Made by a program: the position numbers and the translations under genes. This document shows, one piece after another, positions 13,045-15,090 of a DNA stretch of 64,000 bases. This DNA comes from Candidatus Baltobacteraceae bacterium. Its GTDB lineage: Bacteria > Vulcanimicrobiota > Vulcanimicrobiia > Vulcanimicrobiales > Vulcanimicrobiaceae. The stretch lies in the NCBI GenBank assembly GCA_036489885.1, contig DASXEW010000001.1, forward strand, positions 248,001 through 312,000. The letters run 5' to 3'. How positions within the stretch are numbered: position 1 is the stretch's first letter; the number at the start of each line of letters is the position of its first letter. The notes under the pieces were generated by a model. That model was not told where the DNA came from and searched no databases. It was given only the letters and a program-made list of their open reading frames with translations.

Positions 13045-13078
13045 AAAAACAAAAGGCCCCCACCGGTCGGTGAGGGTC
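13045..13078 (-). terminator. Rho-independent terminator or attenuator upstream of the ATP-grasp gene
   Basis: On the minus strand, an 8-bp stem with one mismatch (positions 13069-13076 against 13057-13064), extended by a G-U and a G-C pair, has a four-base loop. It is followed by TTTTGTTTTT at 13054-13045. It lies between the end of the micro-ORF (13088) and the ATP-grasp start (13025). It either ends the peroxiredoxin transcript or acts as an attenuator. Confidence 0.75.
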
Positions 13079-13181: not shown

Positions 13182-13829
13182 CTAACACAGTTCCCGAAGG
13201 AACGCAACCGTCGCATCTGGTTCGGGTCGGCGCGTGTAGTCCGGGTCTGCGTCAACCTTTCGGATGATGCCGTCCGTCGACACGATAAAGCGCGCCGGAA
13301 CCGGCAGCGTCCACGATTCGTCAGCGTTGTAATCAGGAAGATTCAGTGGAAAACTCTTGTAGATTTTGATGAGATAATCGGGGAGCCGGAAGACCAAACC
13401 GAAGCGAGCGGCGACTTCGTTCCGCAAATCGGAGAGGACGTCGAACGGTAGGCTATGCTGGTCGTGGACGACCTTTGCGAACTCTCGGGTCGTTGGCGAG
13501 ATCGCGACCAAATCCGCGCCGAGCGCGCGGATGTCGTTATACGAGCGGCCTAGAGCTGACAGCTCTAGATTGCAGTACGGTCACCATTTGCCCCGATAGA
13601 AAGTAACGACGAGCGGCCCTTTTGTGAGGAAAGTCGCGGAGTCAATTTCGTGTCCATCTTGATTCGGCAGGCGAAAAGCCGGCATCGACTGACCAACCTT
13701 GAGGATTCGCTCGAGCGCTCGTGACTTACGGAGCTCGTCAACCGCTCGGTGCATCTCCGCGACCACTTCAGGCGGTCTCTTAGCCTCGGCGGCGGTACGC
13801 GTGCGATCGAGTATCTCAGCCAGTGACAT
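13182..13829 (-). CDS. Probable selenoprotein: AhpC/TSA-type peroxiredoxin-like protein with in-frame UGA
   Basis: One continuous frame of 215 residues runs from an ATG with an excellent ribosome site (AAGGAGAG, 3 bases upstream) to TAG at 13182, interrupted only by TGA at 13581-13583. Reading TGA as residue 83 gives VTFYRGKW-U-PYCNLELSAL, exactly where this thioredoxin-fold family has FYRGxWCPYCN. The frame downstream continues perfectly (IRALGADLVAISPTTREF, then PVPARFIVSTDGIIRKVD), so this is not a decayed gene. Selenocysteine replaces the peroxidatic Cys of a CxxC-type site and a SECIS-like hairpin follows. The protein should reduce peroxides or disulfides in the cytoplasm. It diverges from the permease at 13858 with only 28 bases between. 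Sec assignment is inference; no sel genes are in this window. Confidence 0.88.
13550..13568 (-). promoter_or_regulatory. Candidate bacterial SECIS element
   Basis: On the mRNA, CTAGAGCT and AGCTCTAG form a perfect 8-bp stem with a GUC loop. The stem begins 12 nt after the UGA, so the loop starts 20 nt after it, and the first loop base is G. The bacterial SECIS consensus calls for a small loop with an early G, 16-37 nt after the UGA, and this hairpin satisfies all of it. It lies inside the coding region. Confidence 0.82.
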
Positions 13830-13857
13830 TTTCTCTCCTTCGCGAAGTCTTGTGACA

Positions 13858-15090
13858 ATGATGGTCTTGAATGCGGTTGCGGCCGGCCTGCTCCAGTCGC
13901 TGCAGTTTTTCTGGGACAGTCTCTTCGGGCTGATCTTCGGCTTCTTGATTTCCGCAGTGGTTCAAGTCGTGCTGACGCCCGCGATGATGCATCGCTATCT
14001 AGGCGGCAATCTGCGCGGCATTCTATCTGCCGCCGGATTCGGCATCATCGCATCGGCATGTTCGTACGGCGCTTCCGCTGCAGCCAAAGGGTTCTATCAG
14101 CGCGGCGCCGACATTCGCGCGGTCTTTTCGTTCCTGATTTCGTCGACGAACATGAATCTGGCGATTTTGATTCTCTTTTGGAGTCTGCTCGGTTGGAAGT
14201 TTGCGTTCGCCGAGTTTTTCGGCGGGGTCATCATCATCGCGGTCGTGGTTACGGGATTCAGCGTGGTTTTCGGGCGCGATGAACTGGAACGGCTGCGCCG
14301 CGAGCGTCCAGCCCCTGGTGGTGCGCAGCCCGGGATCGTCACAGAGTGTCCGATTTGCGGGATGGAAGGCGAGCCTGATCTCGCAGTGACTTGCGAGGGG
14401 CGGACATATCTTGCGTGCGGGCAGAAGCACGCAAAAGATCTCGCGGCAGATCCCAGACGATGGGTGGGCGACGGGAACACAGACGCAGCCGATGGTGCCG
14501 CGGGTTGGCGCGCCCTGCGCGATCCGGCGACGTGGCGAACGATCGCCGAAACTGCGCTAGCCGACGTCGCAATGCTTCGCAACGAACTGATCGTCGGCTA
14601 CGTAATTGCCGGATTCGCCGCCGCGCTCGTTCCGCAAGATTGGTTTGCGCGCGCGCTGCAGAGTGTCGGCTCAGTTCCCTACGCTGGTTATATCTTGCTT
14701 CTTGCAGTTGGCCTACTATTAGCGGTCATCTCGTTCATCTGCTCGATGGGGAACGTTCCGATCGCGCGGTTTCTCGCGCAAGCCGGAATCCCGCTTGGAG
14801 CGAATACAACGTTTATCTATGGCGATCTGCTGATTCCGCCGCTTATCGCCATCTACATGAAATCGTTTCCCGCGCGCGTCGTTCGATGGTTCATCATCTT
14901 GTTCGTCCTGGGCGCAATGCTTGCGGGTGCAGTGATGGAGCGCGCGATCGGCGACGTCTTTGGAGGAGTCTCGATGGGGTCGATGGAGCTGAACGATCGC
15001 GTTACGCTCCTGTTGAACGGCATCGGGATCATTGCGGTCGCGTTCGTTTTCGTGGCGTCGCGCGCGGCGCGCTCGGAAGCGACCTCGTAG
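13858..15090 (+). CDS. ArsP/DUF318-type permease with an internal YHS-like metal-binding insert
   Basis: The protein of about 410 residues has two similar membrane halves: SAAGFGIIASACSYGASAAA in the first and VISFICSMGNVPIARFLAQ in the second. This is the layout of the ArsP_1 (PF03773) permease family, known for organoarsenical or metal efflux. Between the halves, near residues 160-200, sits a soluble segment CPICGMEGEP...YLACGQKHAKDL, which resembles a YHS/metal-binding module with a CxxCxM site. Cysteines also lie in the membrane motifs (ACSYG, ICSMG). The ATG at 13858 is preferred; GTG at 13852 is possible. It is divergent from the selenoprotein candidate, so both may respond to metalloid or oxidative stress (inference). 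Confidence 0.82.
   Translation: MMVLNAVAAGLLQSLQFFWDSLFGLIFGFLISAVVQVVLTPAMMHRYLGGNLRGILSAAGFGIIASACSYGASAAAKGFYQRGADIRAVFSFLISSTNMNLAILILFWSLLGWKFAFAEFFGGVIIIAVVVTGFSVVFGRDELERLRRERPAPGGAQPGIVTECPICGMEGEPDLAVTCEGRTYLACGQKHAKDLAADPRRWVGDGNTDAADGAAGWRALRDPATWRTIAETALADVAMLRNELIVGYVIAGFAAALVPQDWFARALQSVGSVPYAGYILLLAVGLLLAVISFICSMGNVPIARFLAQAGIPLGANTTFIYGDLLIPPLIAIYMKSFPARVVRWFIILFVLGAMLAGAVMERAIGDVFGGVSMGSMELNDRVTLLLNGIGIIAVAFVFVASRAARSEATS

Follow-up and report, generated by a model that had tools for sequence, protein, structure and literature searches.

In the window, i.e., the complete 64,000-nucleotide stretch of DNA analyzed here, a gene on the minus strand very probably encodes a selenoprotein, in which, judged by sequence comparison, the in-frame UGA at codon 83 would be read as selenocysteine (Sec83). 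The gene and its signals are located at the following window positions:

13182 to 13829, minus strand: predicted selenoprotein coding sequence of 215 codons plus stop, with a single in-frame TGA; the product matches PF00578 (AhpC-TSA) with 93.6 bits versus a gathering cut-off of 26.

13581 to 13583, minus strand: UGA codon of the predicted Sec83, first residue of U-P-Y-C, in a column holding C or U in homologues.

13572 to 13574, minus strand: codon of Cys86, second residue of the UxxC pair, aligning with the peroxidatic Cys in alignments to PDB chains.

13835 to 13839, minus strand: Shine-Dalgarno sequence AGGAG, 5 nt upstream of the ATG, as read from the sequence.

13057 to 13076, minus strand: terminator-like hairpin of 8 pairs and T-rich tail (CCTTTTGTTT) on the 3' side of the gene, identified by consensus match only.

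An earlier, sequence-only reading of this DNA had described a 216-codon frame with a single TGA and left its strand unstated; the frame was recovered on the minus strand, and the plus strand of the same interval contains TAA, TAG and TGA stops. The ribosome binding site pointed out in that reading corresponds to the AGGAG listed above, and its estimated product size of approximately 24 kDa agrees with 215 residues. Codon 83 (TGA at 13583-13581) lies in the context VVTFYRGKW-U-PYCNLELSAL (minus-strand translation) and falls where the family motif FYRGxW[U/C]PYCN has its first Cys, the corresponding column being C or U in all aligned homologues. Intact, family-like flanks had also been claimed, and indeed the 132 codons past the TGA are open and retain the family-invariant residues P84, C86, N87, L90, P112, L132, D134 and R201. 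Since the internal stop hits the C/U column and is followed by 132 open codons retaining invariant residues, it exceeds what chance would produce. The G+C content of the gene (57.6% versus 60.7% for the window) is no outlier, as 10.7% of windows are equally low. The divergently oriented neighbor at 13858-15090 on the plus strand encodes a permease of the ArsP_1 type (PF03773), and a Cys-rich insert in the middle of this protein (TECPICGMEGEPDLAVTCEGRTYLACGQKHAKDL) resembles a small metal-binding domain.

The host genome (3.48 Mb in four contigs, 95.9% complete) contains selA (503 bits, stop-free), selB directly downstream of selA (over its cut-off and without internal TGA), selD (375 bits) and a tRNA-Sec gene scoring 74.8 bits versus a gathering score of 47, with the anticodon TCA as determined by ARAGORN; all four score above their respective cut-offs. 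Thus, all four components of the Sec machinery, whose absence the sequence-only reading had set in advance as a finding on which its proposal would fail, are present, and the organism is equipped for decoding UGA as Sec. The selD gene (L018, G000:C3:303143-304069) features an in-frame TGA of its own (STSGUASKVGA), and because this SGUASK codon is followed by a strong SECIS-like hairpin on its 3' side, the host SelD is probably itself a selenoprotein. A second PF00578 gene of the host (L175, G000:C3:260140-260520) harbors one TGA at the peroxidatic position within FTPVUSSQL, as in a TxxU peroxiredoxin; the strict hairpin test found no SECIS at this locus, despite a favorable folding energy (-16.0 kcal/mol).

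The taxonomic family of the host generally uses Sec, selA being above cut-off in 82 of its 99 genomes. The earlier proposal of a UxxC enzyme in a lineage with few described selenoproteins accordingly stands for the motif and needs correction for the lineage. A literature search for WPS-2/Eremiobacterota together with selenocysteine returned no paper linking them. Furthermore, selA is missing from all eight genomes of genus g18 (G018, G044, G054, G061, G066, G071, G076 and G081) while most of the family carries it, so that Sec use has probably been lost in this genus.

Orthologues were searched in 292 related and distant genomes, and apart from the window itself the top matches came from G007, G009 and G243. 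Within the host family, a genome of another genus (G007) encodes a protein of 49% identity with one TGA (FYRGKWUPYCNLELSAL), and G009 encodes a Cys form of 45% identity (FFRGKWCPYCNLELSAL). The orthologue of G243, which belongs to a different phylum, shows 43% identity and again one TGA (FYRGAWUPYCNLQL); a search of that phylum yielded nothing new. Cys at residue 83 was likewise found in G099, G053 and plasmid homologues, the latter annotated as 'peroxiredoxin-like family protein'. Both Cys- and Sec-containing orthologues, for which the sequence-only reading had proposed to look, thus exist and differ at exactly codon 83. In the genus-mate G001, whose genome is only 80% complete, no orthologue was found. 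tRNA-Sec scored above the gathering threshold in seven of eight orthologue-bearing genomes checked; the exception, G079, also lacks selA and carries a Cys form.

The pattern [FY]RGxWUP[YF]CN, searched in a collection with one genome per species, matched at least 119 DNA stretches, and in all 80 loci listed from this search family-like protein is encoded on both sides of the UGA. Together with G007 and G243, UGA was observed at the position of codon 83 in 82 other loci examined, distributed over many phyla. Among the matches listed, Sec forms were labeled Thermodesulfobacteriota, Myxococcota, Acidobacteriota, Rokuibacteriota, Pseudomonadota, Planctomycetota, Chloroflexota and Verrucomicrobiota, among others, these labels being the depositors' own and the records mostly metagenome bins. 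One contig (L065, CAMATU010000054.1) is titled Klebsiella pneumoniae and carries a Sec form closely resembling those from marine Alphaproteobacteria; the bin is probably mislabeled.

Several related loci were also noticed. Prx-like W-U-P-x-C genes occur in the host family (L040, L044) and the host order (L043, L049), with the motifs FYRGHWUPFCLRQL and FFRGTWUPRCRKQL, and by sequence they would represent at least two more Prx-like selenoprotein subgroups in the lineage. The Prx-like gene L053 (G196:C9:76059-76418) contains two in-frame TGAs (WUPKUQVQL), i.e., the UxxU form. Genes for short-chain dehydrogenases (SDR) are often located near orthologues of either the Sec or the Cys type (L025, L026, L193, L194, L196); the window gene has no SDR neighbor, and the proximity seen in the orthologues is a possible lead to the substrate.

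Downstream of the UGA, a hairpin of the form expected for a bacterial SECIS element (bSECIS) was identified:

13549 to 13569, minus strand: bSECIS hairpin UCUAGAGCU-GUC-AGCUCUAGG with 9 bp and the loop GUC at 13560-13558.

In mRNA order the elements are UGA CCGUACUGCAA UCUAGAGCU GUC AGCUCUAGG, with the hairpin beginning 11 nt and the loop 20 nt past the UGA. Under the published bSECIS model (PMC13188914), the loop measures 3-9 nt and the stem 4-16 bp, G occurs within the first two loop positions, UGA and loop are 16-37 nt apart, and the energy is at most -7.5 kcal/mol. The window hairpin lies within all of these bounds (loop of 3 nt beginning with GU, stem of 9 bp, distance of 20 nt, -10.6 kcal/mol). 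The suspected selenoprotein was hence borne out both by the Sec/Cys exchange among orthologues and by a canonical bSECIS following the UGA.

As a control, the same peptide was recoded with synonymous codons at the frequencies found in eight genes of the window. The local fold was matched by 10 of 5000 recodings, and all nine pairs were retained in 645 of 100,000. Of the 51 Sec homologues of the subgroup, 50 carry a correctly shaped and positioned hairpin; it reaches -7.5 kcal/mol or lower in 33 of these, versus 9.4% of recoded sequences. Across Sec homologues, pairing amounts to 78.0% in register, compared with 36-48% in slid registers; in recoded sequences it is 65.5% (sd 1.6). The Ala codon within the hairpin is GCT in 37 of 47 homologues and in 35 of 386 Ala codons of the eight window genes. 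Since swapping codons for the same residue between alignment rows hardly reduces pairing (77.0% versus 78.0% unswapped), the pairing signal reflects mostly fixed codon choice, and true covariation is limited. Two-sided changes are few, e.g., C-G versus G-C at pair 16-34, and are supportive only.

Among 20 Cys homologues, 4.5 of 9 pairs are retained versus 6.0 of 9 in Sec homologues, two of the Cys forms reaching 8. In the Cys orthologue L026, which encodes the same NLELSAL peptide, the hairpin is not formed. The full-length fold in the window is only moderately better than that of shuffled sequence (z -1.9; 12/200), and for L025 the folding energy of the whole stretch gave z +0.56. Competing structures make whole-stretch folding energy a weak SECIS test, and the better measure is the local hairpin. 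A shorter Prx-like Sec subgroup, mostly from Acidobacteriota and featuring FYRGYWUPFCNSELR (L060, L061, L062, L083, L099 and others), carries its SECIS in another register, approximately 2-4 bases closer to the UGA.

Three readings without Sec were weighed against these data, and all appear highly improbable. If a Cys gene had acquired a true nonsense mutation, the result would be a pseudogene with one internal stop, as observed, and the lack of the gene in the genus-mate G001 would fit such decay. However, the stop coincides exactly with the Cys that is Sec in the other loci examined, a SECIS follows it on the 3' side, the open codons beyond it keep their conserved residues and the genome possesses complete Sec machinery, leaving this explanation with very little probability. 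Even less can be assigned to a Cys gene with an error of sequencing or assembly at 13581-13583; such an error could neither produce a 9-bp SECIS at the correct distance nor account for the same UGA in independent genomes. A general reassignment of TGA without Sec, e.g., to Trp or Gly, is just as improbable: the open frame alone speaks for it, whereas selA and selB lack internal TGAs, a single TGA is found in selD and in the window gene, in both cases at a Sec position, the Cys orthologue L026 of the host family terminates with TGA, and the genomic tRNA-Sec bears the TCA anticodon.

With UGA decoded as Sec83, the protein structure was predicted with Cys substituted for Sec (pLDDT 97.1, pTM 0.93), revealing a peroxiredoxin fold with two extra N-terminal helices. 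Top structural matches are peroxidases, namely Bcp/PrxQ and AhpE peroxiredoxins, and ResA thiol-disulfide oxidoreductases also match. The segment FYRGKWUPYC aligns with FFPAAFSPVC of Aeropyrum PrxQ (2cx3), also in a profile alignment, which places Cys86 at the peroxidatic position. The peroxiredoxin active-site motif is PxxxT/SxxC; the window protein deviates from it in Arg79 for Pro and Sec83 for Thr/Ser, and Arg79, C/U83 and Cys86 are invariant across the family alignment. From the predicted fold and the UxxC motif, the protein would thus be a peroxiredoxin fold carrying a thioredoxin-type active site. The earlier claim of a UGA at the active-site Cys of a peroxiredoxin-like gene accordingly holds as far as the redox Cys of UxxC is concerned, with the correction that Sec is not at the peroxidatic position, which aligns with Cys86.

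Motif and fold make a role as thiol:disulfide oxidoreductase reasonably likely. A smaller, still appreciable probability is given to a selenoprotein that works chiefly in reducing peroxides, with Sec83 and Cys86 together serving as a two-residue peroxidase on the peroxiredoxin scaffold in place of a disulfide reductase. The peroxiredoxins heading the structural matches and the alignment of their peroxidatic Cys with Cys86 argue for the peroxidase, whereas the replacement of Pro and Thr/Ser of PxxxT/SxxC by the family-invariant Arg79 and Sec83, and the thioredoxin-type character of UxxC, argue against it.

For the selenoprotein, the following route is proposed. SelD would supply selenophosphate and SelA would make Sec on tRNA-Sec(UCA); SelB would bind the hairpin 11 nt past the UGA and bring the Sec-tRNA to the ribosome, where UGA would be translated as Sec83. 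In the product of 215 residues, a helical N-terminal part would be joined to a thioredoxin fold of the AhpC/TSA type, with the active site Sec83-Pro-Tyr-Cys86. Most likely, the Sec83 selenolate would attack a disulfide or hydroperoxide, Cys86 would resolve the intermediate to a Se-S bond, and a cellular thiol reductant would reduce this bond again. The enzyme would then be a thiol oxidoreductase of the UxxC type, its Sec occupying the nucleophile position of thioredoxins.

The literature has included UxxC-type Prx-like selenoproteins (PF00578) since 2005 (PMC1088965, PMC1794560, PMC2398784, PMC13188914) under the names 'Prx-like protein' (PMC1088965, PMC1794560) and 'Prx-like 1' (PMC2398784), and in Table 1 of PMC13188914. 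Like the Prx-like UxxC/UxxU thiol:disulfide oxidoreductase selenoproteins, the window protein is bacterial, contains the PF00578 domain, has UxxC where TxxU would stand and is encoded with a SECIS after the UGA; in a comparison by published domain and motif, no difference was found. By these sequence features, it belongs to this known family and is not a new kind of selenoprotein.

None of the NCBIfam models reaches its cut-off for the window protein. PrxU (TxxU; NF040737) is likewise a Sec-containing PF00578 protein, and a TxxU peroxiredoxin is present in the host genome; however, PrxU carries Sec at the peroxidatic position, whereas Sec in the window protein is located three residues earlier, and the NF040737 score is 33.9 versus a cut-off of 270 bits. 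The SelL-related redox protein (NF040769) resembles the window protein in its Prx-like fold and UxxC/UxxU-type redox motif, but contains two Sec residues instead of one; its model scores 26.4 versus 120 bits and matches weakly in all 35 members of the alignment. The Cys forms named 'peroxiredoxin-like family protein' by NCBI have the FYRGxW-PYCN motif in common with the window protein at no more than 50% full-length identity and differ at residue 83, which is Cys and not Sec. This family presumably equals CDD cd02970. In a 2026 review, cd02970 is listed with UxxS, not UxxC.

A tree built from 76 proteins joins the window protein to a Sec protein labeled Rokuibacteriota (support 95/80, bootstrap incompletely settled), while homologues from the host family are scattered and none pairs with it. 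The Sec label changes at least six times across well supported branches. Since the nearest relative is the Rokuibacteriota-labeled protein and not a host-family homologue, the tree suggests horizontal transfer between Sec-using lineages. A broader view is advanced only tentatively and is rather doubtful as a whole: the FYRGxWUPYCN proteins might make up a single large subfamily of selenoproteins that lacks a curated model and has spread horizontally along with its own portable SECIS in the E-L-x-A-L codons. Its members would be hybrid enzymes in which a thioredoxin-type Sec nucleophile cooperates with the residue that serves peroxiredoxins as peroxidatic Cys.

The finding is one more member of a widespread selenoprotein type. 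With it, a well supported selenoprotein is gained for a lineage with selA in most genomes of the family. As this broad subgroup of Prx-like selenoproteins passes no NCBIfam cut-off, automatic annotation may miss the Sec and split or truncate such genes. Sec at the thioredoxin position on a peroxiredoxin fold introduces no new principle and poses a testable question of mechanism.
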